Shown here piece by piece: positions 26,272 through 41,748 of a DNA stretch of 64,000 bases. Below the pieces are notes generated by a model, which saw nothing but the letters and a program-made list of their open reading frames with translations, was not told where the DNA came from and ran no database searches. This stretch comes from Ignavibacteriota bacterium (lineage in GTDB: Bacteria > Bacteroidota > Ignavibacteria > Tepidaquicellales > Tepidaquicellaceae): assembly GCA_026390735.1 (NCBI GenBank), contig JAPLFJ010000052.1:124001-188000 (forward strand), in the 5' to 3' direction. Position 1 is the first letter of the stretch; each line of letters begins with the position of its first letter. The position numbers and the translations under genes are program-made.

Positions 26272-26319
26272 GAAAGTAAAACAACTGCGTACTTTGTCGT
26301 AGATTCGCCTTGGAGAACA

Positions 26320-26398
26320 TCCCGATTCTCTTTATCGGGACTTCCAGGTTGTTACTCTTTGACTTTTATTAGGGTAAGACAACCTTCCAGGTTGTTAC
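26320..26398. repeat. Intergenic hairpin cluster with CTTCCAGGTTGTTAC direct repeat
   Basis: TCCCGAT/ATCGGGA hairpin (26320-26340), then CTTCCAGGTTGTTAC at 26341-26355 and again at 26384-26398. The second copy lies in a hairpin ACAACCT-TCC-AGGTTGT followed by TAC. It shares the GTTAC end with hairpins at 33439 and 35417-35510. Confidence 0.75.
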
Positions 26399-26451
26399 GT
26401 AGATATTTAAATAACCGGAAAATATCGAAAACCTAAATTATTGCAACATTT

Positions 26452-26486
26452 CATAACCGTTTTATGTTCATCAGAAAACGGTTATG
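26452..26486. repeat. 12-bp perfect inverted repeat
   Basis: CATAACCGTTTT (26452-26463) and AAAACGGTTATG (26475-26486) separated by 11 nt. No good T run follows, so it is a weak terminator candidate for the peroxidase gene. Confidence 0.6.
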
Positions 26487-26524
26487 ATTATTTAAAAACG
26501 ATAAAACAAATATAGTAATAAGAG

Positions 26525-26665
26525 TACGAAGGAAGACTTAGTGCTTTTGAGATTAAATGGAATAAGACCGCGAACATAAAAATTGCAAAGACTTTTACAA
26601 ATAACGACAAGGTTGATAAAATAGGCATAATAAACCCGGAAAACTTTTCTGATTTTCTGATGTGA
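26525..26665 (+). pseudogene. C-terminal remnant of a DUF4143-type ATPase
   Basis: The frame from 26525 reads YEGRLSAFEIKWNKT... and ends ...IGIINPENFSDFLM, then TGA. AFEIKWN and the INPENFxDFL ending match the C-terminus of AAA/DUF4143 ATP-binding proteins, where the (E)xK core is nuclease-like. Stops lie directly upstream in frame and no ATPase part remains. It marks a deleted gene in this spacer. Confidence 0.65.
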
Positions 26666-26734
26666 GGTGAATGGTAATACCCCGCCTCAAGCGGCAGGGT
26701 ATTACCCTAATAGATTATTCTAAAGAATAAATTT

Positions 26735-27064
26735 TTATTTCATCATCTTTTCTTCTATTGGAATCAATTTCATGGCAAGAGGCGTTAACTCCTTTATAAG
26801 TTGTTTGTCCTCATCAGTCATATTCTTAGGATCTTTTATATCTCTTTTGGAAATATTTGTTTTAATATCTTCCAACTCTTTTTTATCCTTTTTGTATGCC
26901 TCTTTGTCTGCTTCTGTTATGTTGGCCGAATTAGAAATTGGCTCATACTTCTTAATCATATCCTCCATTTTTGATTTGTATTTTTTCTCAGGGCTGTTTC
27001 CACACCCAAAAAGCAAAAACGGAAGAACTAAACCCACCATTAAAACTGAAATTATTCTGTACAT
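26735..27064 (-). CDS. Small putative lipoprotein
   Basis: 109 residues; lipobox LLFGC at ~17-21. The mature part is short, highly charged and helical (Lys/Glu-rich, EAYKKDKKELEDIKTN). It is the last of five minus-strand genes running from the CHASE2 gene, 76 bp after the next gene upstream. No family recognised. Confidence 0.6.
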   Translation of the reverse strand: MYRIISVLMVGLVLPFLLFGCGNSPEKKYKSKMEDMIKKYEPISNSANITEADKEAYKKDKKELEDIKTNISKRDIKDPKNMTDEDKQLIKELTPLAMKLIPIEEKMMK

Positions 27065-27140
27065 ATATTATTTCCTTTCTGGCTCTTTGTTGAACCAAAT
27101 TAAGTTTGATGTATCGATCAACATATTTTAAAACTAATAT

Positions 27141-27707
27141 CTACTTCTGTGTTATACTTGAAAACTTCATTATAAATTCCGGCTCGGACATTGAGCCATT
27201 TTCTGTTATGCTCATTTCCTTTAAATAATTAAGATATTCTGCATCTGTATCTGTTAAAAATTTACCGCTGAAATATACTTCAGTGCCTTTTTCAAGATTA
27301 ATTAATTGGTTATAAACTTTTGATCCGTTAGCAATTAATGTATTATCACTCATATCTGAAAATCTATTATTGTTTGTTTCTATTTGAATTGATGTTCCGG
27401 GAATACTTATGAATACCCATGCCTGACCGTCTCCGGTTGTTCCATAATCTTTAAGTACGCCTACCCAATTATTAACCGTTAAATTTTTGAAAGCCTTTTT
27501 CAATTCATTTTTTCTATCTTTTCTTAAAGCTGATTTTTTCAGGTCGTTTGTTGCTTCGGCATATTTTGAAGCATACCTTCCTGAAATCTCAATTAAGGTT
27601 TGTTCTTTCTGTGGATAATCTTCGTTTTGTGAAAATGAAGTTATTGGTAAGCAAAACATCAGAAGAGCCAGACAAAATAGTACAATTAGTTTAAATGATC
27701 TTGACAT
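27141..27707 (-). CDS. Secreted protein with OB-fold-like pattern
   Basis: 188 residues with a signal peptide ending TSFSQ near residue 26. After a charged helical region (NDLKKSALRKDRKNELKK) comes a beta-rich part: NWVGVLKDYGTTGDGQAWVF, SIQIETNNN, LEKGTEVYFSGKF. That order of strands recalls tRNA-anti-like OB folds in exported proteins; this is a weak inference. It lies 63 bp downstream of the caspase gene in the same direction. Confidence 0.55.
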   Translation of the reverse strand: MSRSFKLIVLFCLALLMFCLPITSFSQNEDYPQKEQTLIEISGRYASKYAEATNDLKKSALRKDRKNELKKAFKNLTVNNWVGVLKDYGTTGDGQAWVFISIPGTSIQIETNNNRFSDMSDNTLIANGSKVYNQLINLEKGTEVYFSGKFLTDTDAEYLNYLKEMSITENGSMSEPEFIMKFSSITQK

Positions 27708-27769
27708 AATAAATTTTCCTTTCTGTATAATTTATATGAAATATTTTATAATTGACTCTATAACGTATT

Positions 27770-30484
27770 TTACCACACTTTAAAATCGAACTCAATGTTT
27801 TCTCTTCTCATTGTGGGCTTTTGTTTGCCTTTGGTTAACTCTTCTACTCTTTTGCTGACGTAATCTCTTAGTTCAGATACTGTTACTGTGCCGTCACTGT
27901 TTATGTCTGCTTTGTTGTTCTTTAGACCGTCTATTAATGAATAAGTGAATAGTCCGTTCTTGAAGTCTCCGCCTTCCCATGCAAACTCCATTCCTCCTGC
28001 ACTAGATATTACCATAGCTCCGGAACCGCGTCTTAAGTCTACAAACAACTCTTGTAATAACTGGTTTGTGTTCTTAAGTCCAAGTTTGGTTTTGTCTTTT
28101 TCCTGGTATTCCTGGTCTCCTACGGCTCTGAATGTTACTTCTCCTTTTTCTTCTTTTTGTTTCTCTACTGCTACTATGTCTTCTTTGTCTACTTCACCTG
28201 AATGGCAGGTGTCCATAAACAGTATCTTCTTTAATGCAGGAATACCATCAAGGAGTGATTCTATCTCATCAAAGGTTATACCTTTTTCCTCAGGGTTTTT
28301 GAAATCTATGTCACAGGTAGCATAGTAATAATCAAAGTCTTTGTTTAGAAGTCCGTGGCCTGCTATAAATACTATTACTTCATCATCTACCTTTGTCTGC
28401 ATCAGAAATTCTTTCGCTTTGAGTATGTTTTCTTTGGTTACATCTTTATCAAGTAGTTTCATTACTTTTACTTCTGCGTATTCACCCTGTTTGCCCTTAA
28501 ATAACTCTGTCAGGTCGTTTGCGTCTTTGGCTGCATAGGTAAGCTTATATTTAGGATCATTGTAATCAGATGTACCTATGGCTAGTACGAACAGTGTTGG
28601 TTTGGACTTTTCTGCTTCACAGGATATTTCTACTGTTTTTTTTAGAGATTCCACACCCTTGTCGTTTAGCACTGATACCTGTATTTTATTCTTTCCTTCT
28701 AAAAGGTTTAGTTTGATGTTTTCTTTGTACTCTGATTTATTGTCATCTTTTAAGTTTATTCCGTTTACTCCATAAACAGGTACGTCGTTGTTATATACAT
28801 TTATTCTGTTAAGGTTGTACTTTGTATCCCAGGCTTTTATGTCCAACTTAATTACTTTGTCTTTCACTACCGTTGCCAGATTATCGTTGAGTATCTTTAT
28901 TTCCGGTAAGTGAAAGTCCTTATTAAACATTTCTTCCTTGAAATTCATTTTCTTCAACCGTTTCTCGTATGCTTTCTTGTATGATTCTATTACTTCTTTT
29001 GATGCATAGCCAAGTCGCTCCAAAACTATGTCGGGACGGTTGTACTGCATATCGAATTGTTCGGGAGAGTACATTTCATTGCCTTTTTTGAAAGCAACAC
29101 CATTGTATGCACCTTTTGTAGTAAAATAATAGTTATCAGGTGTGGCGATGATGTAATCATTTGGACCATAGTCAATTAAACGAGTAATTACATTTCCGGT
29201 TTTGTTTTTAATTATAATTTCAGGTGACGCTATAATCTTTTCTACAATTAGTTTATCTTCAATCAATATTTTTGACAACGTATCTTTTAACCCCTCAGGT
29301 TCGGTTATTTCCTTTGAGAAAGTTGATGTATAATCCGACAAACTCCAATGCCTTGTGTATCGCTTAAAATTATCAAAATCCACATAGTTTGCTTCAATGC
29401 TGTTTTCAGATTTATTCTGTTTAATACCTGTTACAGCAATATTACTTGTTCTATATGTTTTTATTATTGATTTTGAGTTATTACTCCATAATTTCATTGA
29501 ATTGCTCCCAACCTCGGGATTCCCGCATACAGTAATAAAATATTCTCCATCCTTTGAAATAGCCATATTATTTAACCAGCCTATTTCAATTGGATATCCC
29601 GTATATGGCGAGGAAAACTTTTTTTGCTTAGTGTCATACATTTTAATTTCGCTGCCACTCCCGCATAAAATATTGTTTTCTTTAGCAAATTGTGTTTGTT
29701 CAATATTCTGCCCTTCTGAAAAATTGGTAACTTTTTTATCTTCGACATCAATTGTGTTGCCACCAAAACTTATTTTACCGTTTTCTAATTTGGGTTTACT
29801 TATAAAAGTTACATCGATATTAGACTCCCAGCTAATCTGCTTCTTTTTTACATCATAAAACAATATTTTACTTTTATAGCTTTGCATGTCTAATTTATTA
29901 TAAATTACTATTTCATTCTTTGTATCATATAATACCGATCCAATTTCTCCGCTTTCGTTTAATTCTTCTACTTTATCAGTTTTGGTGTTTACTACCCTAA
30001 GAGTTTTTGAATTGGCGATTCTTTCTTCGTTTCCTTCGGCATCAACATTAATATTACGAAATCCGATAATTAAATTATTATCGTCTATGAAATCACCTGA
30101 GATAACCCGATTATCAAACTTGTACTTTTTTAATAATTGTTTTGTTTTCAAGTCTACAATGCATACCTCGTTATAACTCCCGCCACATAGAAGAAGAGTT
30201 TCAGTAATATTTAACATTAATAAGTCACCACCACCATCGATTGTAGCAAAGCACAAACCTGTTTTTGTATCCCAGAATTTGATGTTGTCAGCCCCCGTAA
30301 TAAAACTCTTACCATTATTGTAAAACAGAACATTTGAAATGAAATTATTATGTCCTGTTTGAACTACTAATTCTACTTTAGATGTATCTGTAATTATGTT
30401 TTTTGCATTAATATTAGTTTTGTTTGCACATAATATTACTTGTAAAAGAACAAGGATAATTAAAACGGTTAAAACTTTTTTCAT
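27770..30484 (-). CDS. Exported WD40-repeat caspase (peptidase C14) protein
   Basis: 904 residues. A signal peptide (MKKVLTVLIILVLLQVILCA) puts it outside the cytoplasm. Residues ~35-400 are WD40-like beta-propeller blades (ISNVLFYNNGKSFITGADNI, IKFWDTKTG). A beta domain (~520-620) precedes a caspase-like domain (~630-860) with the dyad His710 (FIAGHGLLN) and Cys760 (FMDTCHSGE). At 860-871 an EF-hand-type loop DINSDGTVTVSE may bind calcium, in line with calcium-dependent metacaspases. Both catalytic residues are intact, so it should be active. It follows the FecR-like gene by 32 bp in the operon. Confidence 0.88.
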   Translation of the reverse strand: MKKVLTVLIILVLLQVILCANKTNINAKNIITDTSKVELVVQTGHNNFISNVLFYNNGKSFITGADNIKFWDTKTGLCFATIDGGGDLLMLNITETLLLCGGSYNEVCIVDLKTKQLLKKYKFDNRVISGDFIDDNNLIIGFRNINVDAEGNEERIANSKTLRVVNTKTDKVEELNESGEIGSVLYDTKNEIVIYNKLDMQSYKSKILFYDVKKKQISWESNIDVTFISKPKLENGKISFGGNTIDVEDKKVTNFSEGQNIEQTQFAKENNILCGSGSEIKMYDTKQKKFSSPYTGYPIEIGWLNNMAISKDGEYFITVCGNPEVGSNSMKLWSNNSKSIIKTYRTSNIAVTGIKQNKSENSIEANYVDFDNFKRYTRHWSLSDYTSTFSKEITEPEGLKDTLSKILIEDKLIVEKIIASPEIIIKNKTGNVITRLIDYGPNDYIIATPDNYYFTTKGAYNGVAFKKGNEMYSPEQFDMQYNRPDIVLERLGYASKEVIESYKKAYEKRLKKMNFKEEMFNKDFHLPEIKILNDNLATVVKDKVIKLDIKAWDTKYNLNRINVYNNDVPVYGVNGINLKDDNKSEYKENIKLNLLEGKNKIQVSVLNDKGVESLKKTVEISCEAEKSKPTLFVLAIGTSDYNDPKYKLTYAAKDANDLTELFKGKQGEYAEVKVMKLLDKDVTKENILKAKEFLMQTKVDDEVIVFIAGHGLLNKDFDYYYATCDIDFKNPEEKGITFDEIESLLDGIPALKKILFMDTCHSGEVDKEDIVAVEKQKEEKGEVTFRAVGDQEYQEKDKTKLGLKNTNQLLQELFVDLRRGSGAMVISSAGGMEFAWEGGDFKNGLFTYSLIDGLKNNKADINSDGTVTVSELRDYVSKRVEELTKGKQKPTMRRENIEFDFKVW

Positions 30485-30516
30485 AATTATTTTATTATTT
30501 GTTAAAATGTTAATTT

Positions 30517-31314
30517 TTAAAAATTGTTTTTATAAAATTGTTCAAATGCTTCCACATTAAAGTTGCCATAAGTATCCGATATATATGACAATGCATCTTT
30601 GTGAGTCTCTTCTTTTGTTTTATTTAAAGATGATGCAATTTCAACTATTTTTTGGATTTCTGACTTTATCTCATTCTCTTCAAGGAATGATAGTTTGAAA
30701 CTCGAAATCTGGGCAGATGTTTTGTTGATTTTGTCATAGAAGAAAAGTGTAACTTGCTCAACATCATCTTCTTTAACGACATTTTCATTTACTTTATATA
30801 TCTTATCTTTACTAAAAATAAGTGTATCAGCACTGTATTCGAGTTTCTTGTTTACATCTTCGCCATTGTATTTGTATCTCAGGTAAAAGAATGTATTATC
30901 ATTCATCGGATAGTTTTTGTCTTCTACTTTAATTCTCAAAGCACCGATTACAAAATAATTTTCCTTAAATTCATCCTGAAGAGAGGTTACACCACGTGAA
31001 CTTAAATTCCCGCTTCCACTTTGTTTAAGGACATCTCCCATTATACAAGCAAACTCTGATTTCGTGTCTTTTGCCTGTGATTTCAGTGTAAACCTTCCCT
31101 TGCTCGAACTGTGAACCACAACAACGGAAGTGGAAGATTTGAAGACTAACTTATCTGAGCTGCAAAGTTCATCTTGTGCCGACACATCTTTTCCTTTTGA
31201 GGAATTGTAAACGGTCCCTTTGACCTTCATTACTGTGTAGCAATCCTGTGAAAAGCACGTAGAGGCTAATGTGATTAATATCACACAGAGTGTGAGTAAT
31301 TTAAATTTTTTCAT
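30517..31314 (-). CDS. Secreted protein with FecR-like N-terminal part
   Basis: 265 residues with a signal peptide ending TCFSQ near residue 23. Residues ~25-110 recall the FecR beta domain (VMKVKGTVYNSSKGKDV, LCSSDKLVFKSSTSVVVVHS). The remaining ~150 residues are unassigned, with a helical C-terminus (IQKIVEIASSLNKTKEETHK). It overlaps the CHASE2 gene by 14 bp, so the two should be made together. With the membrane CHASE2 protein and the exported caspase it makes an extracytoplasmic set. Confidence 0.62.
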   Translation of the reverse strand: MKKFKLLTLCVILITLASTCFSQDCYTVMKVKGTVYNSSKGKDVSAQDELCSSDKLVFKSSTSVVVVHSSSKGRFTLKSQAKDTKSEFACIMGDVLKQSGSGNLSSRGVTSLQDEFKENYFVIGALRIKVEDKNYPMNDNTFFYLRYKYNGEDVNKKLEYSADTLIFSKDKIYKVNENVVKEDDVEQVTLFFYDKINKTSAQISSFKLSFLEENEIKSEIQKIVEIASSLNKTKEETHKDALSYISDTYGNFNVEAFEQFYKNNF

Positions 31315-32623
31315 CTTGATTTAATTTTAATGATTTTCTATCTAAATATATTAAGTAAAAGTATTTTTCTGCTTCCAGAAACAGTACAAGTATTAAAACG
31401 TTTATATGAATGTTGAAAATGAGATAAGATAAAAACGACACTAATGTAAATACTGAAGCTGCACCAATAAATTTAAAGATAAATGAACCTATAGATGTTT
31501 GTTTCAGCAAATCTATTATCTTCGCTTTTTTAAAAACCTCTCCGGCCTTTATTTTCTTCTTATCTTCAGTTTCTTCTTTCTTTTTCCAGGGGAACCTGAA
31601 AAAACTTTTAATCTTTGCTTTCAATGCGCTGGGGGTTTTATTAGTATTGAAAACCCTGAACGATAAATAGAAATAACACAAGAATAAATAAGGGAAGAAA
31701 AGAAATGGTATAACATTGTCTCCTTTTAAAAGCGTTAAATAAGCATTTAAAACAATAATGGTTCCAGGAGTTTTGCCAAATACTGTGCTGTGCATATCTC
31801 TTTCGAGAAAATCACCAACTAATAGTATTTTGTTTTTGACAGTTTCATTAATCATACTATCAGATAATGAAACAAATTCACCGAGATGTACGAAAGGATA
31901 AGGATTTGGAGACATACCCTCTATAATATCATAATACCTAACTTTTTGATCGAGTATTATATTATTAAAACACAATTTGTTGTTAGTATAATAAAACAAT
32001 CCTTTTTTCTCAAATTTGCCATTATTGATTTTATCGAACAATATTAAAGGAACGCTTCGTGTTGTATCGTCTTGAAGAAGTTTGAACTTCAAGAAAGATC
32101 CCTCTATGTAATCATAATCAGCAAAACCTCTGTTTACATCAAACAACGGTAGTTGATAATTTCCACCTCCTGCTCCATGATACGGTATTACAAGGTTCTT
32201 TGCTTTCATCAATTGTGAGTTTAAATCCTCATCAAATTCAGAACCGTCCTTAAAGAATACATCGCAAAATATGTATTTGTAATTGTCAGGTTTTTGATTA
32301 ATTACTTTAAACAGTCTTGCCAGCTTCGATCTGTCTGTTATTATTTGCTGACCAATAGGAATGCTATCTGCATCTAATTTGTCTATTAGCATTGGATCAT
32401 AAGACACGTTCACAAATAGTAACTCATCTTGTTTGGGCTTATCATCAATCTTGAGTATTAATTTCTTAAATATAGATGAGTATTTCACTAGGAAAGTATC
32501 GTCACCATAAGTACGGTTAGATTCCAGAAGGAAAAATGTAAGCACAAGCATTATTAACGCACTAATAGCCGATAAAGAGTACTCAAGCTTATGCTTTTTA
32601 ATCTTTTCAATAAAACTTATCAT
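31301..32623 (-). CDS. CHASE2-domain membrane protein
   Basis: 440 residues. One N-terminal helix (~15-35) is followed by a ~260-residue extracytoplasmic domain resembling CHASE2 (LLFVNVSYDPMLIDKLDADS, YKYIFCDVFFKDGS, GFADYDYIEGS, KILLVGDFLERDMHSTVFGK). Then come membrane segments near 300-325 and 380-425. CHASE2 is normally joined to kinases, cyclases or phosphodiesterases; here there is no cytoplasmic output domain, just a ~50-residue Lys/Glu-rich loop between helices. It is the first gene of the caspase operon, so it is the likely sensor or platform. Confidence 0.75.
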   Translation of the reverse strand: MISFIEKIKKHKLEYSLSAISALIMLVLTFFLLESNRTYGDDTFLVKYSSIFKKLILKIDDKPKQDELLFVNVSYDPMLIDKLDADSIPIGQQIITDRSKLARLFKVINQKPDNYKYIFCDVFFKDGSEFDEDLNSQLMKAKNLVIPYHGAGGGNYQLPLFDVNRGFADYDYIEGSFLKFKLLQDDTTRSVPLILFDKINNGKFEKKGLFYYTNNKLCFNNIILDQKVRYYDIIEGMSPNPYPFVHLGEFVSLSDSMINETVKNKILLVGDFLERDMHSTVFGKTPGTIIVLNAYLTLLKGDNVIPFLFFPYLFLCYFYLSFRVFNTNKTPSALKAKIKSFFRFPWKKKEETEDKKKIKAGEVFKKAKIIDLLKQTSIGSFIFKFIGAASVFTLVSFLSYLIFNIHINVLILVLFLEAEKYFYLIYLDRKSLKLNQDEKI

Positions 32624-32899
32624 TAGCCTCTATTTTAGAATTGTGATAAAATATTTTTACACGCAAATATAAATAATACAAACTTCCGACCATTTATACT
32701 GGTAGCTTGTAATTGTCTACTTTCAAATTGATTCAGTTTCTTTTCTATATAAAAATCTTTACAGTATAAATATTTTAGAAACCGTTTTGTCAAACGTCTC
32801 TATCCCAATCCAAAGTGCTGTCAATTATGTGTGTAGCAGAGGGAAACGAAGCACATAATTGTTTAATGGAAAATATTATCATTCTTTGTAATTATCAAG

Positions 32900-33100
32900 T
32901 TATTTTTTGTAATACCATTCTTTCAAAAACCACTTTTCGCTTCGGCGGCTGTTTGCGTGAACATAATCAGCAAAAATTTCTTTTCCCGTTCCCGTCTCGC
33001 CGATTATTAAAACGGGGCAATCTGAATTACGGATTACTTCCACTTCCATCAAAAGCGACTGCATCGTTTTGTTACGGGTAATGATTTTTGAATTTATCAT
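32900..33100 (-). pseudogene. Truncated sigma-54 activator (NtrC-type AAA+) remnant
   Basis: 66 residues. MQSLLMEVEVIRNSDCPVLI followed by IGETGTGKEIFADYVHANSRR matches the start of a sigma-54 interaction domain, with an intact Walker A GETGTGKE. It ends in unrelated residues after SRR, before the GAFTGA loop and Walker B, so it cannot be a working activator. No response-regulator or DNA-binding part is found nearby. Confidence 0.75.
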
Positions 33101-33209
33101 ATTAGTAAGTAGTAACGGTTGGATTCTTTTTCGGAAAAGTTTTTGAAATATTTTAACAATTATTTGTAAGCACGTATTTTACAAAAGTATTTAAGTTCTA
33201 AAATCACAG

Positions 33210-33506
33210 CTGTCCAAAATAAATTGGAAACTATAAATAACATTCATTTAAAGTCCAATTTGGACAGATTTTAGACTTATTTTCCAAAATTCAAAAACAA
33301 CCCCCTGATTCAAATATTTAATCGTGCATAATGCTGTCCAAAACAATTACTATACGTCTATAATCTTTTAAACTAATAAAATTATGTTTATTGAGCTTAT
33401 TCAATGATTTATAAGACCTTTATTGCATTCCACACTATCTCAAGCAAGATGCTTGAGTTACCCTCTGCTGTCCAAAACATTTTCTTAAAGGAGTTATTTT
33501 GGACAG
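33210..33506. repeat. Five CTGTCCAAA(A) sites, two as inverted pairs
   Basis: CTGTCCAAAA at 33210-33219, 33334-33343 and 33468-33477; the inverse (T)TTTGGACAG at 33259-33267 and 33497-33506. Sites 1-2 and 4-5 form inverted pairs with 39- and 19-bp spacers. No gene is seen here; the remnant at 32900-33100 is the nearest feature. Confidence 0.8.
33439..33461. repeat. Hairpin CTCAAGCA-AGA-TGCTTGAG-TTAC
   Basis: A perfect 8-bp stem with a 3-nt loop, followed by TTAC. It is a close relative of the hairpins at 35417-35510. Confidence 0.75.
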
Positions 33507-33668
33507 ATGTGTTCTAAAATATTACATTTATTCATTTTTGACTTGCTTTTTAAAACAATTATAGTTATCTTTATTTTAAGTTCAGAATGCTCTGAATTTA
33601 TCAGTGAAAGTTGTTATTATTGACATTAGTTAAGGTTTAACGAAATAACTTACTGATAATACAATAAA

Positions 33669-33734
33669 GCCACAATTTATCCACTAATACTCCAATTATC
33701 GTCCATTTATATTCCACTTGAATTCCACTTACTC
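33669..33734. repeat. Six 11-bp units phased on (T)CCA
   Basis: Units start at 33669, 33680, 33691, 33702, 33713 and 33724, each exactly 11 bp. The last five begin TCCA (TCCACTAATAC, TCCAATTATCG, TCCATTTATAT, TCCACTTGAAT, TCCACTTACTC); the first begins GCCA. The rest of each unit is AT-rich. The array ends 94 bp before the start of the orphan gene. Confidence 0.8.
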
Positions 33735-33828
33735 CTTAGTTATCTTTCGGTTAGTCGTATATGAAGCGTCCTTTAATCGTCGTTTCATTTATTGATTAAT
33801 ATTGTTTTTAAATTACATTTACACTTAT

Positions 33829-34617
33829 ATGTCAGAATTCATACCCGGTCCATTAGGCATCCCTTTGGGAAAACAGGGCAAAACTGTTTTCAGACGTACC
33901 AAAAAGAAGATTTTTACGTACGAAGCTTCGGATGAACCAATGAAGGTCAAGTCCGAAAAAGCTCAAAACAACAGGCTTGAATTTGGTAAACTCGTGAGGT
34001 TCTCTAACTTCGTGAATAGGTCTAAGCTGATAAAAGAAGTCTGGAAACGATCTAAACTTCCCGGTACGGCTTCTAACAGAAGGATTCTTAAGTATAACCA
34101 TAATACTTTTAAAAACTATGGCATTGATCAGGCTTGTCATATTCTACCCAAATCAACTTATATGAACAAAGCCGAAGTGACTATTAGTGAAAGCAGTTTA
34201 AGGTTTAAGTTTACAACTGTTTATGATCAAACGGGATACAACACAATATTCTCTGAATTTCTTCCGCCGTATAAATATGTTTGTATGCTTCACTTTAAAG
34301 ACCCGGCTGACCCGGTAAACGAGAAGAAGGTTATCAACATTATGCTCGAAGAACTTTTAAACACGGGTCATCTTTCCCGGGAAGGTTACACAAGTTATAG
34401 TTTTGATATTCCCGAAAACTATTTCTCCTTTATTAAAGATTATAAAACCATACTTGCGTTCCCCGCGCTCATTACTATGAACGAATACGGCTCCCCTGTT
34501 CATTGGACAGAAACAGGCGGGATTTATTTAAAAGGCGAGCGACCGCCCTCAAGGCAGCCTAAAGAGGAACCAGCTATAGAATCACCCGAAAAGTCTCTTC
34601 GTATTGAGTATAACTGA
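33829..34617 (+). CDS. Orphan protein of unknown function
   Basis: 262 residues from the preferred ATG (MSEFIPGPLGIPLGKQGKTV); an in-frame start nine codons earlier is possible. No signal peptide or membrane segment. The N-terminus is strongly basic (TVFRRTKKKIFTYEASDE, SKLIKEVWKRSKLPG). It vaguely recalls DUF6266-like proteins, which also begin with a GxxGxxxGKxG pattern; I do not claim homology. The C-terminal half is beta-rich. It stands alone, flanked on both sides by about 1 kb of repeats and remnants. Confidence 0.6.
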   Translation: MSEFIPGPLGIPLGKQGKTVFRRTKKKIFTYEASDEPMKVKSEKAQNNRLEFGKLVRFSNFVNRSKLIKEVWKRSKLPGTASNRRILKYNHNTFKNYGIDQACHILPKSTYMNKAEVTISESSLRFKFTTVYDQTGYNTIFSEFLPPYKYVCMLHFKDPADPVNEKKVINIMLEELLNTGHLSREGYTSYSFDIPENYFSFIKDYKTILAFPALITMNEYGSPVHWTETGGIYLKGERPPSRQPKEEPAIESPEKSLRIEYN

Positions 34618-34660
34618 GGATTGCAAAGGTAATAATCTATTATTTGGTTTGAATATAATT

Positions 34661-34779
34661 AAATCGACTCGTTATTATATAACAGAGTATTGAATATCTA
34701 TTCGATATTACATAGTAGTCTATAGCAAATCGATTCGTTATTACATAACAGAGTATTGAATATCGATTCGACATTGCCT
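34661..34779. repeat. 53-bp imperfect direct repeat, 66-bp period
   Basis: Copy 1 begins at 34661 (AAATCGACTCGTTATTATAT) and copy 2 at 34727 (AAATCGATTCGTTATTACAT). Both continue AACAGAGTATTGAATATC. They differ at about six positions over 53 bp. Confidence 0.85.
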
Positions 34780-34940
34780 CGTCCCATATTTCTTCAAAAA
34801 GTACACTGCGTAGCAAGTTACAAACAAAAGAAGGAAAGAAAACATAGAGGAATAGGTTCACAGAGTTCTCAGAGAAGTCATGGAGCTCACAGAGAAATGA
34901 ATCTCCCCGCAGCAAGCTACGGGGTTATCTTATTGACAAA

Positions 34941-35013
34941 TATGTCGTCCCTCTGGGACTTTGATATTTATAATGCTTTCTGCTATTGTTATGTCGTCCC
35001 TCCGGGACTTTGA
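34941..35013. repeat. Two 24-bp copies with GTCCC-TCY-GGGAC hairpin
   Basis: TATGTCGTCCCTCTGGGACT (34941 on) and TATGTCGTCCCTCCGGGACT (34990 on), both continuing TTGA. They are in the same orientation, 49 bp apart, and differ at one base. Each holds a 5-bp stem with a 3-nt loop. They look like REP-type elements. Confidence 0.8.
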
Positions 35014-35087
35014 AAACGAAAACATTACAATATTTCGCTGCAAGCAGCGGGGAATTAAACCCACAGTGATTAAAAACCAGACACGAA

Positions 35088-35101
35088 CCCGCCGCGGCGG
35101 G
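35088..35101. repeat. Perfect palindrome CCCGCCGCGGCGGG
   Basis: A 14-bp all-G/C palindrome inside AT-rich spacer DNA, near a CTGCAAGCAG palindrome at ~35038. Function unknown. Confidence 0.6.
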
Positions 35102-35370
35102 CAAATTAACTCAAATTTAAGAGCAAGAGTTTTTTTAGGCAGAGAAAAAGAAGGCAATTTTAAAAGAAAGGGGGTAAATTCTCAAAATCAAGTGAGACTG
35201 GAAAAGATAATAAGAATTATTGTATATTGGTGTTATACAATATTGTATAATAGTAATATACAAAAGATGATAATGAATGATATACCGGTTTAGATAGCAA
35301 ATTCTTAAAAAGTAAGTGAGTAAGAAAGTTAATAAGTTAGAAATTAAGAAAGTGAGTAAGAAAGGTATAA

Positions 35371-35400
35371 AAAAGGCGGATTGTATTTCCGCCTTTTGAA
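35371..35400. terminator. Terminator-like hairpin
   Basis: AAAAGGCGGA / TCCGCCTTTT stem (10 bp) with a 7-nt loop. No gene ends just before it on either strand, except argF ~130 bp to the right, read toward it. Confidence 0.6.
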
Positions 35401-35416
35401 ATTTTATCTTTAAATT

Positions 35417-35510
35417 CTCAAGCAAGATGTCTCGATATGGAACATCGGGACGAAAAGAACTCACTTGAGTTACTTTTACATTATCTCTCAAACAAGGATG
35501 TTTGAGTTAC
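35417..35510. repeat. Two CTCAARCA...TTGAGTTAC hairpins
   Basis: CTCAAG (35417) pairs with CTTGAG (35464-35469) around an inner CGAT/ATCG stem, then TTAC. A second perfect 8-bp hairpin CTCAAACA-AGGA-TGTTTGAG (35487-35506) is followed by TTAC. Both match the hairpin at 33439-33461. Confidence 0.75.
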
Positions 35511-35526
35511 TCTATTTAATATATTT

Positions 35527-36528: not shown

Positions 36529-36829
36529 AAAATATTTTTAAGTTTAGTAATTCTTCTGAATTGAGTACAAATATACTAATATTAAAGCGGGGATTAAAGT
36601 GAGAATTAATTACATCTGTCTTTTGTCTCGGCAGATTTATAGCGTTGATTTGATTTAATTTGTTAATTAAATTATTCAATCAAGTGAAGCACTAAGATTT
36701 ATTTTTTTAAACGCTGATTAAACAGACACAAAAGAGTTAATAAGTTTTGCTTTGGGATTTAGAAATAGTTCTTTATTTATACTATTCCGAAACTTTAACC
36801 GAAAAGGGTTGTAACTATTAAACTTTAAT
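36529..36829. other. Divergent promoter region between argF and the Lon-lectin operon
   Basis: About 300 bp of AT-rich DNA between divergent genes. I see no clear -35/-10 pair, ARG box or repeat array in it. Confidence 0.5.
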
Positions 36830-37816
36830 ATGCCGATAGACCATAAAAACAGATTTTATGTTGAAGATAATAAAAGCCTCAATAGATTTGTTTCCGGGGT
36901 TATAAAAATCTCAGAAGAGTACATTAGATTCCTGATCTACAGGGGCAGAATTTCAAGTTTGGGAAATTTAAGTCCTTTTGATACCGCAGTTGACCTTTTA
37001 GCAGAACTCTTTAAAGTTGAGAACGGCTGTCTTGTTTATTTCAAACGTCACTTCGAAAAACTCGATACCATACCAGGCTCCGAAGAAGAATACACAAAAG
37101 CACTAAAACAGTTTATCTACAGTGCAACGCTTAACAACCTTACTCATATTTACAAACTTATTGACCCTGTGGCAAACAAGTTGTTAAGAAACCTGAAAGC
37201 TGCTTACAGAGGAGAAAATTACCTGGTAACGGAAATATTCCTGAATAAATATGTACACAAAAAAGATGTAGCTTTCGCATCTAAAGAGTGTATCGACAGG
37301 GACACACTGCTTAACCGGATAATAGCAAAAAACTGGACAGTACAGACTACCGCAAAAGAATTTCTGGCCTGTGTGTTTGACGTATTAGAGTCGCAAGACC
37401 AGTATTTACAGGCGATTTCTCTTAATGACCTCCTGAACATTTATAAAGAACTCTTCGCAATAAAAGGGAAAACAGATTTTATAGGAGAAAAGGTTTCATC
37501 AGATATTCACCATAAATTACTGTTTGAAGAAATAAGAAAAGGGTTTGTTGTAAAACTAAATAATTACCTTGTTAAGAAAAGATTTTCCGAAAAAGAGCGT
37601 AACTGTATCTATAATATAATAGACGATGTAATAAACTGCTACCTTAACGGAACACAGAGAGATTCTGTGAAGGAGCTTGTGAACAGATATTACGGAAAGA
37701 ACGGAACGGATTCAGTATGTTACAGGGCAGAATACGCAATAGGGCTGCTGAACTCTGAAATAATTACATTAATGCAAAAAGAGGAAATGAGAAATGTCGA
37801 AAGACTATCTAAATAA
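36830..37816 (+). CDS. Unknown helical protein, first gene of the Lon-lectin operon
   Basis: 328 residues, cytoplasmic and mostly helical. The segment SPFDTAVDLLAELFKVENG...YFKRHFEKLDT and the following FIYSATLNNLTHIYKLIDP have a weak resemblance to sigma-factor region 2 helices (a helix that would meet RNA polymerase, then a basic LRNLKAAYRG). I see no convincing region 4. It overlaps the next gene by 23 bp, so the products should be made together with the Lon-type protease. No function assigned. Confidence 0.6.
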   Translation: MPIDHKNRFYVEDNKSLNRFVSGVIKISEEYIRFLIYRGRISSLGNLSPFDTAVDLLAELFKVENGCLVYFKRHFEKLDTIPGSEEEYTKALKQFIYSATLNNLTHIYKLIDPVANKLLRNLKAAYRGENYLVTEIFLNKYVHKKDVAFASKECIDRDTLLNRIIAKNWTVQTTAKEFLACVFDVLESQDQYLQAISLNDLLNIYKELFAIKGKTDFIGEKVSSDIHHKLLFEEIRKGFVVKLNNYLVKKRFSEKERNCIYNIIDDVINCYLNGTQRDSVKELVNRYYGKNGTDSVCYRAEYAIGLLNSEIITLMQKEEMRNVERLSK

Positions 37817-38531
37817 AATCATTAACGGCAAAGATAAACTGACCGGGGAACTCGGAAAAGAACAAGAGGCATACCGTGAGTTTATAAGTGGGGGCTGGAA
37901 AAACGAAGAGGAAAACCATACCGGAAAAATAATCACCTTCCTGCCTGAGAATTTTCACGCAGATAAAGTAGCAGAGTCTGGTGCATTAATAGTAAAGATG
38001 GCGGCAGACAGCCGAAATTCGGGAAAGTATAAAAAGGAAACATATTTTTATGTTTCCGAAGACGATACTTTTGCACTTAAAATAGATGAAACAGTAACGG
38101 CAGAGGATTCATCTCTAACGGCAGCTGTAATTTCAGAATCAGAAAGCGATTTAAGCGAATGCGTTCTGTACTGTCCGGAAACAAACAAGTATTTTCTTCG
38201 CAGCCAGGGAAAGGATATTATATTAACAGGATACAAGAATTTTGATTATCAAAGGTTCACGTTTAAATTAATGTATCCGAAGGCAAAAATATTTTTCCTG
38301 ACGCCAAAAGACTCCGACGTATATACTCTTCTTTCCGATGACGCGAGTTTCGCGGTAAACAAGTATGCAATTGAAGATGGAAACATAATAGCGGAACTTG
38401 ATAATTCCGAAAACATAAAGGTTGTAACGCTTAAATCAGAAACGTGTATCGACTTTATAAATATACAGAACGGCAAACTAACTATTCCCTTAATACTCGC
38501 GGGTTCAAAATTTGAACTTCTTATTTATTAA
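37794..38531 (+). CDS. Unknown beta-rich protein, second gene of the Lon-lectin operon
   Basis: 245 residues, no signal peptide or membrane segment. After a charged N-terminus (YLNKIINGKDKLTGELGKEQ) the protein alternates short beta strands throughout (KIITFLPENFHADKV, ESGALIVKMAADS, IILTGYKNFDYQRFTFKLMY). I recognise no family. Its stop shares one base with the start of the protease gene (TAATG), and it overlaps the first gene by 23 bp, which points to stoichiometric expression of all three. Confidence 0.6.
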   Translation: MSKDYLNKIINGKDKLTGELGKEQEAYREFISGGWKNEEENHTGKIITFLPENFHADKVAESGALIVKMAADSRNSGKYKKETYFYVSEDDTFALKIDETVTAEDSSLTAAVISESESDLSECVLYCPETNKYFLRSQGKDIILTGYKNFDYQRFTFKLMYPKAKIFFLTPKDSDVYTLLSDDASFAVNKYAIEDGNIIAELDNSENIKVVTLKSETCIDFINIQNGKLTIPLILAGSKFELLIY

Positions 38532-41500
38532 TGCTAAGCAGAGTAATTTCCTTATACAAGAAGGTTTATTCAGAAATTGAAAGGTCAAGTTCGGGACGAA
38601 GCAGGTTTTACATGATACTGTCATTCTTTACGGAGTGCGAGAAAACATTCCGCTCCACGCCCCCGTTTTCACTCATTAAGGATTTTGTCGCGATATTAAT
38701 TGAGGTTGTTCTGAAGAGCGACATAACCTTTACCGACCCTTCTAAATTAAATGCCACAAAGTTCATACTGAAGGAATCAAAATTTGAATATGCGCCTGCA
38801 AAAGGCGGAGAAATAGTACTATCCCAGATTGATAAGGCAATCGATATTATCAATATGCAAATGCTCAAATCATATTTCTATCTTGGGAAGTATGATGACG
38901 GACTGATTGTTTTAAACAACATGCTTAACGAAAGAGATGCTGCGCAGAGTGCAGACGAGATTGGTGCCGCAGACCATAAGAAGAAAAAAGACGTCCGCAG
39001 TGCAACACCAAACAAATATGCGCTAGTAAATCCTGATATTTTCAAAGAGTCGAGAGCGTATGAAATATTAACCGAAATAAAGAACGAACTCGAAAGACTG
39101 AATTCATACTCCGACGAACATGTTAACATACTGCTTGTAGAACAGGATGGACTTGAAGCCAGCAACTCAAACGGAACGATACAAGGCTTACTCTGCTCAA
39201 CCCTGAAAAAGAAGATAAACGAGGTCAACGTTATATTTGAAAACATTACGGACCTTGAAGATTATTCACTTGAAAATGCGCTGACGGATATTGTAACCGC
39301 TTCAAACCAAATAGTAAATCAGCTTTCTGGGAAAACAGTATCGCAGAACATAAAAAGGAATTTACGTTTTCAGAACATAAAAGTAGTGTACAAGGGTGCA
39401 TCGTTCGGGCTCGGAGCAGCAGTAATCAGCGCCTGTAATTATTTCAAAAACACAAACAGCAGAAGACGTTTTAAAATAAGCAATGCCGTAGCATTTACGG
39501 GGGCGATTGACGGAAAAGGAAAAGTGCTGAAGGTTAACAGCGATTCGATAAATAACAAAATCGAGGCCGCTTTCTTTTCCTGGATTAAGTATTGTGTTGT
39601 GCCAAAAGAAAACCTTGATGATGCAACCAAAGCATATGAGAAACTAAGGGCGCTGTATCCTACAAAGGAAATGAAAATAATATGCGTAGAGAATGCCGGC
39701 GAAGTGTTTGAACACAAAGAATTATTTCTTACGGAAAAGCTGAATTTAAAGAACTATACACAGATTTTGATTAACAAATACAGGTATACAAGCGCCGCGA
39801 TTCTTGTTCTGATTACTTCTGTTCTGGTCTTTGTGATGGCAGCAAAATTTTTACCAAAAGACAAAAAGCCAATGCCAAACATTAGTTCAAAGATGTCGTT
39901 GGTATACACACCAGACAGGAATAATAAGTGGGTGTTTCAGAATGCAGATTATTTTGGGGGTGATACAATAGACTTCGGAGAAGTTGCGGTTGGCGACCAG
40001 TGGCTTCCGATGCTCGAGTTCTGGAACAACAGCCAGAAAGAGGAGTCGTTTGACGTTAAGGTTGAAGGTAATGATGACTTTGAATTATTATGGTTTGACG
40101 AAGAACAGCAACCCTCTTCGCCGGACAAAATTAACCCGTCTTTTCAGCAGCGTCTGAACTTAAAGTTTTCGCCAATGGCAGAAAGTGATTCCATAAGGGC
40201 GCGGGTTATATTCGGCTGTTCTGACAACAAAGAAGAAACAAAAACAATCTTCATTAAGGCTGTTTCGAAGAAGTACGAAGGCGGATACTCCGCTGTTATA
40301 AAAAATGGCGACGACAGAATACTTATTACACCAGGCCGGAATATTTTCCCTAAAGAATTCACAATCAGTTTCTGGTTGAAGCCCGATACAGCGCTTCTGA
40401 ACAATAATGATGATGAAACATATTACAAAGACAAAGGATTTCAGGTGTTAAGAATATCGAACGATAACTCTTCTCTAACAAAATTCGCACTACTGCTTGA
40501 AAGGGACTCAAGTCTGTCGTTTTTCATTAACAACAGAAAAGCAGACTTCAAGAACTTTTTTACAATCAAAGCTGATTCAAAAGTCAGGTTTGGCGAATGG
40601 AACTATGTTTGTATCTCATACGACCTGAATAACGTGTTCCTAACATTAAACGACAAAACAAACAAAGAATACGTAGACAAGGATATTATAAGACAAACAA
40701 ACGACGTGATATTCTTCGGCTCAAGACATCCGGTGTTTGACGACAACAGACACCCTCAGAAAATGAACGGATTTTTTAAGATATTTAATTTTAAGATTTA
40801 CGAAAAATATTTTGACGGCGACAACATTAACAGGTTAAAATATAAATCGCCGGAATGGAACGACGAGGGCATAGTACTGAATTATGAGTTTGACCAGATG
40901 AGCGAAAAGAAGGTTTTTGATTTAAGTAAGTCTGATATATGGGCTATTACTTCGGGCGGAGTAGTAAGGTCACTGGACATACCTGACGGGTTTAAACAGT
41001 CAGAACCTTATTCAAATAAAGAAACGGGAAACGCAGTTCTACACAGAGAAAAAACAGGAAGGATGGAGTTTTACAAGAACATATTTAAGGGGGTAAAGAA
41101 CTTCACAATTCAGATGGATGTAAAGTATGACAACATCGGTGAAAAGAAGCAGGAGTTTTATATAATCCTTAATCCTGAAAAGGAATATTTCTTAAGCATT
41201 AACAAAGACTCCCTGTTTTTGTTTTCGGGTAAATATAAGTCAAAGGAAAAATATCAAAAAAACGGGGAACTAAAATCTGACGGTAAATGGCACAGGTATA
41301 CACTCACCTACGAAGACGGCATAACAAAAGTATACGCAGACAGCACAGAAATAATGAAACTGAATACATCCGGAAAGTCTTTAGATATTGAGAAACTGAA
41401 TTACGGGTTAGTATTCGGGAATGTTGCGTACATTGCATCTGCAAGACATTACGGAGACGCCTGTATGTTCGACAATGTAAGGGTTTACGGCAGGGCAATA

Positions 41501-41653
41501 AACGCCTCAGAAATATACGGTACAAATGGTAATGGGCTTCTTGCAGAATGGACTTTTGATAATATTAAAGGATATTATGCTTACGACAACATAAAAGGGT
41601 ATCCGGCTTTACTAAAAGGTGAGATAAAGATCATTAAAAGGCAGGATAAATAA
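38531..41653 (+). CDS. Membrane protein with Lon-type protease domain and two LamG domains
   Basis: 1040 residues. The N-terminal part (1-~400) is cytoplasmic and ends in a Lon (S16) protease-like domain: KGASFGLGAA with candidate Ser291, AFTGAIDGKGKVLKV, then NNKIEAAF with candidate Lys343, and CVVPKENLDD. Lon enzymes use exactly this Ser-Lys dyad. No AAA+ domain is present. A single membrane helix (~419-438, AAILVLITSVLVFVMAAKF) follows. Outside the membrane come an ASH-like beta domain (~475-580, IDFGEVAVGDQWLPMLEFW) and two concanavalin/LamG-type domains (~595-780, ~835-1020; FTISFWLKPD, WNYVCISYD, WHRYTLTYEDG). A protease inside joined to lectin folds outside is unusual. Confidence 0.82.
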   Translation: MLSRVISLYKKVYSEIERSSSGRSRFYMILSFFTECEKTFRSTPPFSLIKDFVAILIEVVLKSDITFTDPSKLNATKFILKESKFEYAPAKGGEIVLSQIDKAIDIINMQMLKSYFYLGKYDDGLIVLNNMLNERDAAQSADEIGAADHKKKKDVRSATPNKYALVNPDIFKESRAYEILTEIKNELERLNSYSDEHVNILLVEQDGLEASNSNGTIQGLLCSTLKKKINEVNVIFENITDLEDYSLENALTDIVTASNQIVNQLSGKTVSQNIKRNLRFQNIKVVYKGASFGLGAAVISACNYFKNTNSRRRFKISNAVAFTGAIDGKGKVLKVNSDSINNKIEAAFFSWIKYCVVPKENLDDATKAYEKLRALYPTKEMKIICVENAGEVFEHKELFLTEKLNLKNYTQILINKYRYTSAAILVLITSVLVFVMAAKFLPKDKKPMPNISSKMSLVYTPDRNNKWVFQNADYFGGDTIDFGEVAVGDQWLPMLEFWNNSQKEESFDVKVEGNDDFELLWFDEEQQPSSPDKINPSFQQRLNLKFSPMAESDSIRARVIFGCSDNKEETKTIFIKAVSKKYEGGYSAVIKNGDDRILITPGRNIFPKEFTISFWLKPDTALLNNNDDETYYKDKGFQVLRISNDNSSLTKFALLLERDSSLSFFINNRKADFKNFFTIKADSKVRFGEWNYVCISYDLNNVFLTLNDKTNKEYVDKDIIRQTNDVIFFGSRHPVFDDNRHPQKMNGFFKIFNFKIYEKYFDGDNINRLKYKSPEWNDEGIVLNYEFDQMSEKKVFDLSKSDIWAITSGGVVRSLDIPDGFKQSEPYSNKETGNAVLHREKTGRMEFYKNIFKGVKNFTIQMDVKYDNIGEKKQEFYIILNPEKEYFLSINKDSLFLFSGKYKSKEKYQKNGELKSDGKWHRYTLTYEDGITKVYADSTEIMKLNTSGKSLDIEKLNYGLVFGNVAYIASARHYGDACMFDNVRVYGRAINASEIYGTNGNGLLAEWTFDNIKGYYAYDNIKGYPALLKGEIKIIKRQDK

Positions 41654-41748
41654 TATTTCACTGATTACTTTCTTTTGCTTTCATTTCATTGTTATTTTTC
41701 TTCAGTATTGATAAATTCCATAATTACAATAATTTTTAAACTACATTA

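Follow-up and report, generated by a model that had tools for sequence, protein, structure and literature searches.

The window analysed here, a stretch of 64,000 nucleotides, carries an operon of five genes on its minus strand (Table 1). All five open reading frames lie where the first-pass annotation had placed them, and the 14-bp overlap that it reported between the CHASE2 and FecR-like genes is evident from their coordinates. A scan for promoters and terminators returned sites no more frequent than those in shuffled sequence. The five genes had been proposed to form one operon. Of these, the first three, which encode a CHASE2 membrane protein, an FecR-like protein, and a WD40-caspase, are conserved together as a rare module across Bacteroidota, a conservation that does not extend to the OB-like and lipoprotein genes. 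Neither the 188-aa nor the 109-aa protein matches a Pfam family, and the label "OB-like" for the former finds no significant family match behind it. No relative of the 188-aa protein was found among 59 related genomes; its gene was rejected as a module member because it is not conserved with the module, and it probably lies outside it. The 109-aa lipoprotein gene is not part of the conserved module.

Table 1. Features of the operon and its insertion, in positions of the window
Feature	Position	Strand	Basis or remark
Stand-alone CHASE2 membrane protein, 440 aa	31301..32623	-	Pfam PF05226 match, hydropathy, alignment of stand-alone relatives
FecR-like secreted protein, 265 aa	30517..31314	-	ORF; FecR family assignment weak
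LSSRG linker motif, aa 104-108 of the FecR-like protein	30991..31005	-	Candidate caspase cleavage site
Exported WD40 + Ig-like + C14 caspase-like protein, 904 aa	27770..30484	-	Pfam, structure model, signal-like N-terminus
Peptidase C14 domain, caspase aa 633-900	27785..28588	-	Pfam
Catalytic His710 codon of the caspase	28355..28357	-	Alignment with relatives
Catalytic Cys760 codon of the caspase, motif DTCHSG	28205..28207	-	Alignment with relatives
EF-hand-like loop DINSDGTVTVSE, C14 domain aa 860-871	27872..27907	-	Weak EF-hand matches below cut-off
Secreted 188-aa protein ("OB-like")	27141..27707	-	ORF; 62 bp behind the caspase gene
109-aa lipoprotein-like protein, LFGC lipobox	26735..27064	-	ORF; 76 bp beyond the 188-aa gene
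Operon-bearing insertion, gpx to carbamoyltransferase gene	26272..35515		Comparison with G001, G002, and G004

The source genome (4.0 Mb in 69 contigs) has the operon caspase as its sole C14 gene, and the named members of its family belong to Ignavibacteria. The insertion is bordered by gpx and the carbamoyltransferase gene. In same-genus genomes without the module, these two genes are either about 80 bp apart (G001) or have 1.3-1.8 kb of other genes between them (G002 and G004); the operon therefore sits in an insertion. The CHASE2, FecR-like, and caspase genes were found in no same-genus genome searched. The operon stretch is AT-richer than its surroundings (30-34% versus 37-41% GC), and the only repeats flanking the insertion are short or chance-like. 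The same insertion also holds, at window positions 33802-34782, a 271-aa gene without assigned identity followed by three 33-bp-spaced direct repeats (34661-34782). Beyond the carbamoyltransferase gene lies a second stretch that is missing from G004 (36605-41664), with three plus-strand genes (36830-41653). In the last of these, LamG domains follow a Lon_C protease-like match that is borderline at 21.2 bits (cut-off 21.1).

The CHASE2 protein matches the Pfam family over aa 81-309 with 33.7 bits (cut-off 26.3). According to hydropathy, a first transmembrane helix (aa 15-33) is followed by the periplasmic CHASE2 domain, a C-terminal helix at about 304-325, and more helices within 385-427. The domain search recognized no kinase, cyclase, or other output domain, and the protein ends soon after the last helix. 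This agrees with its initial reading as a CHASE2 protein lacking an output domain, since nothing but transmembrane helices follows a sensory domain that scores above the cut-off. Several distant relatives score below that cut-off. A scan of the genome contigs with the single sequence retrieved no relatives, but an alignment-based scan did find some from named taxa. Pfam CHASE2 matches over the phylum were left out of the count because they are long (about 700-900 aa), carry extra domains, and have a different architecture.

The caspase matches Peptidase_C14 over aa 633-900 with 71.9 bits (cut-off 21.4). Its N-terminal part matches WD40 propellers, so that WD40 blades, an Ig-like region, and the C14 domain follow one another, and His710 and Cys760 are unchanged in five aligned relatives. 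Its identification as a WD40-caspase is thus borne out by the domain scores and the His/Cys dyad. An EF-hand-like loop in the C14 domain was considered as a general calcium switch and rejected, as it occurs only in the WD40 subtype and in G486 and is absent from most other caspases linked to CHASE2.

Stand-alone CHASE2 relatives are few. They occur in 6 of 29 genomes of the family (source genome included), 4 of 395 across the phylum, 7 of 201 of another order, and 1 of 195 of another class, with further relatives in one Cyclobacteriaceae, one Bacteroidales, and two Prevotellaceae records. Sixteen loci have enough flanking sequence to be read; G009, G023, and L095 lie on contigs that are too short and were left out. 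A recognizable FecR-like gene adjoins CHASE2 in 14 of the 16, and the remaining two (G486 and G578) have an FecR candidate too diverged to confirm. A C14 or CHAT protein is encoded within about 10 kb of CHASE2 in 13 of the 16. The FecR and C14 models behind these counts were built from some of the same loci (the window, L051-L060, and L095-L107), whereas L123-L128 fall outside the training set and are independent matches. C14 lies near CHASE2 in G000, G011, G174, G375, G601, G582, G567, G486, G630, G578, L097, and L098. At G018, an exported TPR-CHAT protein rather than one of its C14 genes stands beside CHASE2, and neither type was found near CHASE2 at G008, G265, or L096. These counts uphold the proposal that CHASE2, FecR-like, and C14 genes form a conserved neighborhood.

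Gene order varies. The window has CHASE2-FecR-C14; G174, G601, G582, G567, and G630 have C14-CHASE2-FecR; in G375, C14 lies upstream of FecR-CHASE2; and in the two Prevotellaceae loci (L097 and L098), it lies upstream of CHASE2-FecR. The module genes are divergent or convergent neighbors in G011, G486, and G578. In G174, G601, and G582, the C14 and CHASE2 genes share 4 bp. The association is not universal: no C14 gene was found in the CHASE2-FecR genomes G008 and G265, and G006 and G028 have such caspases without CHASE2. No relatives of the module genes were found on plasmids or viral contigs.

The association of the first three genes exceeds chance. In 10 of the 11 genomes that hold both CHASE2 and C14, a C14 gene lies inside the module, and it is often the only one of its genome. 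There is one C14 gene in each of G000, G011, G601, G486, and G578, two to five in G018, G375, G582, G567, and G630, and nine in G174, all in tandem within the module; the six-frame Pfam search under-counts C14 in G174 and G567, for which our own model and Pfam on proteins gave more. The chance of finding C14 beside CHASE2 in a 20-kb window is 0.4-4% per genome. Under genome independence, 10 or more of 11 would be expected with a probability of about 4e-20. The genomes are not independent, however; taking the least favorable genome of each of three lineages gives 0.0061 x 0.0402 x 0.0124, or about 3e-6 (multiplied by hand). Since order and orientation differ by lineage, the association has more plausibly been selected repeatedly than inherited as a single cluster.

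Several of these loci have features of their own. In G174:C96 (L105 8941-18485, L160 490-13810), the nine tandem C14 genes, all encoding exported proteins, lie upstream of a single CHASE2-FecR pair, and the catalytic domains of most of these proteins share 74-86% identity. The Prevotellaceae caspase-CHASE2-FecR clusters include exported proteins with a very long Gln/Glu/Lys coiled coil and, by eye, a transglutaminase-like C-terminus (L097 2919-6875, L098 5141-8266). In G028, whose genome has no CHASE2 relative, the WD40-caspase gene is overlapped by a second exported C14 gene (L059 6627-11910). The caspase-less CHASE2-FecR pair of G265 is divergent from what appears by eye to be a PorX-like response regulator gene (L106 9058-12051), and that of G008 is followed on the same strand by an unnamed gene, a signal-less trypsin-like protease, and a TPR protein (L053 3593-9039).

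All 26 linked caspases retain the His/Cys dyad, with GHG and D-x-C motifs, and they are predicted, with the D-x-C pattern as the feature checked, to be specific for Arg/Lys at P1. A signal-like N-terminus was called in 25 of the 26 by a loose hydropathy rule rather than SignalP, a rule that is unspecific, as 141 of 272 other ORFs also pass; the last has a clear leader by eye once its start is shifted. A better contrast comes from G582 and G630, whose unlinked C14 proteins have the catalytic domain at their very start and look cytoplasmic; the unlinked ones of G018 and G567 are exported as well. The extracytoplasmic location that had been proposed for these proteins is supported by the signal-like N-termini of the caspases and FecR-like proteins and by the transmembrane pattern of CHASE2. 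Overall, gene linkage and the predicted extracytoplasmic topology are well supported at the level of sequence.

The second gene was described as an FecR-like secreted protein. Its signal-like N-terminus is consistent with secretion, but its identity as FecR is doubtful, since it matches nothing in Pfam (including PF04773) or NCBIfam and aligns with true FecR domains in register but weakly (hhalign, probability 14%, P = 0.002). Foldseek with its structure model returned weak Ig-like matches only, and neither a cognate sigma factor nor a TonB-dependent receptor, as in FecI/FecR signaling, was recognized among neighboring ORFs. C25 and C51 are invariant in nine Ignavibacteria relatives. In the structure model, the N-terminal beta domain is confident; a linker of low confidence (aa 81-110, pLDDT < 50) and a second part follow. 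Inside this linker lies one conserved motif, L-S-T-[RKH]-[GSD], whose basic position is Arg in 10, Lys in 5, His in 3, and Ala in 1 of 19 sequences (LSSRG in the window). Characterized C14 peptidases other than caspases favor Arg/Lys at P1 (PMC5756287), and LST[R/K] is a candidate caspase cleavage site. This idea is weakened by the His that Prevotellaceae carry at the putative P1 and by Lys in genomes without C14.

Our preferred reading, which we hold tentatively, is a sensor-controlled envelope protease module in which CHASE2 and the FecR-like protein gate an exported periplasmic caspase and the FecR-like protein is probably cut at LST[R/K]. CHASE2 would be an inner-membrane receptor and anchor with a periplasmic sensory domain and no cytoplasmic output, the secreted FecR-like protein its periplasmic adaptor, and the exported C14 peptidase, with its dyad and predicted Arg/Lys specificity, the output. 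A signal at CHASE2 and the FecR-like protein would switch on or release the caspase, of which the latter would be a probable substrate, cut in its disordered linker. We infer a physical complex, a direction of control, the cleavage, and a downstream effect of the module. The reading draws on linkage in varied orders, the C14 genes that mostly fall inside the module, the 4-bp overlaps, the conserved dyad, the signal-like N-termini, and LST[RKH] in a low-confidence linker, together with the P1 preference (PMC5756287) and precedents for such pairings (PMC5192318, PMC3501461). It is weakened by CHASE2-FecR pairs without C14 (G008 and G265; G009 and G023 on short contigs), caspases without CHASE2, the CHAT neighbor in G018, L096 with neither protein, His at P1 in Prevotellaceae, the weak FecR assignment, and the strong divergence of the FecR candidates of G486 and G578. 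The fuller proposal of a caspase pathway outside the cytoplasm, running from an output-less CHASE2 through a secreted adaptor cut at LST-Arg/Lys by an exported caspase to periplasmic proteolysis or death from outside, is more doubtful. If true, it would mirror the cytoplasmic caspase systems known from bacteria.

A role of the module in stress sensing, cell death, or phage defense is no more than possible. Bacterial immune systems that employ caspase-like proteases are known, and an anti-phage or cell-death system that senses infection or envelope damage via CHASE2 and the FecR-like protein and kills from the periplasm would fit a patchy module within an insertion, tandem caspase copies, and a match to the generic PADLOC caspase model (27.7 bits). 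We nevertheless regard such a system as improbable: the caspase is exported rather than cytoplasmic, it has no gasdermin, nuclease, or nucleotide-sensing partner, PADLOC gives no match to components of any defined system, viral contigs and plasmids lack relatives, and no death effector, phage sensor, or defense-island context was seen in the loci read. The CHASE2-FecR pairs in genomes where no C14 gene was found (G008 and G265) and the caspases of this type without CHASE2 (G006 and G028) also weaken the case for a stress-sensing or cell-death role. Signal-gated proteolysis at the envelope or surface without death, serving surface-protein maturation, remodeling, or nutrient acquisition, is also unlikely, if less so. 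It would account for the variety of WD40, TPR, FGE-sulfatase, or Ig-like partners seen with the exported proteases, for the exported proteins named by eye as transglutaminase-like and LPP20-like in the Prevotellaceae clusters, and for the biofilm-regulating operon that holds the Burkholderia CHASE2-FecR pairs (PMC5192318), yet it has no defined substrate, and so rare and patchy a module would be unusual for housekeeping.

The arrays of tandem caspases with one CHASE2-FecR pair (nine in G174, four in G582) could instead be secreted weapons from which CHASE2, with the FecR-like protein, shields the producer, and the caspase-less pairs of G008 and G265 would then be orphan immunity. Such a toxin-immunity system is quite improbable given caspases without CHASE2 in G006 and G028, a CHASE2 architecture that is a receptor's, and no recognized delivery domain. 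Patchy distribution and the insertion site would also be expected if accessory genes had merely gathered in the same insertions without a functional link. This we consider highly improbable: the association recurs across several lineages in which the genes are ordered differently, some of the genes overlap by 4 bp, and a genome mostly has just one C14 gene.

The module bears on largely open matters, namely the roles of bacterial caspase homologs and the signals sensed by CHASE2 domains. Its three genes define a receptor, an adaptor, and a protease that can be tested jointly, and they offer a candidate for a site at which a bacterial caspase cuts a native substrate. If the proposed envelope module is real, control of the caspase type would extend to the periplasm, without ATP or the cytoplasmic activators of known systems.

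The caspase shares with bacterial C14 peptidases (metacaspases and orthocaspases, including WD40-caspases) the His/Cys dyad, the D-x-C motif, and WD40 or TPR partners, and 46 metacaspases were reported to carry one N-terminal helix that may be a signal peptide (PMC3501461). The MALT1 paracaspase (caspase-Ig) and Geobacter GSU0716 align with the C-terminal part of the caspase model (TM normalized to target, 0.44-0.57). The resemblance is one of fold only, and MALT1 is an animal cytoplasmic signaling protease with other partners. In the full-text literature, whose coverage leaves out most subscription papers, we found no description of exported caspases in a conserved CHASE2-FecR module, which is apparently an undescribed extracytoplasmic variant of a known pairing. 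A CHASE2 or receptor domain is linked to a C14 peptidase in the metacaspase-CHASE2 fusion of Trichodesmium erythraeum IMS101 (PMC3501461, PMC2853523) and in MaOC6 of Microcystis, which has been described as a membrane orthocaspase of similar kind that carries a receptor domain (PMC5756287). The Trichodesmium fusion, however, is one protein whose caspase the authors placed in the cytoplasm, whereas the module in the window has separate genes, an exported caspase, and an added FecR-like partner. In the "BiofilmReg" operon of Burkholderia and relatives, which pairs FecR/LysM with a CHASE2 histidine kinase (PMC5192318), a secreted FecR-type protein is likewise encoded beside a CHASE2 receptor; yet that receptor carries a cytoplasmic kinase, while the CHASE2 protein in the window lacks an output domain and an exported protease is encoded instead. 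Together, the Trichodesmium fusion and the Burkholderia pairs support the view that CHASE2 and the FecR-like protein may act as a sensor head with an exchangeable output, a kinase in Burkholderia and an exported caspase here.
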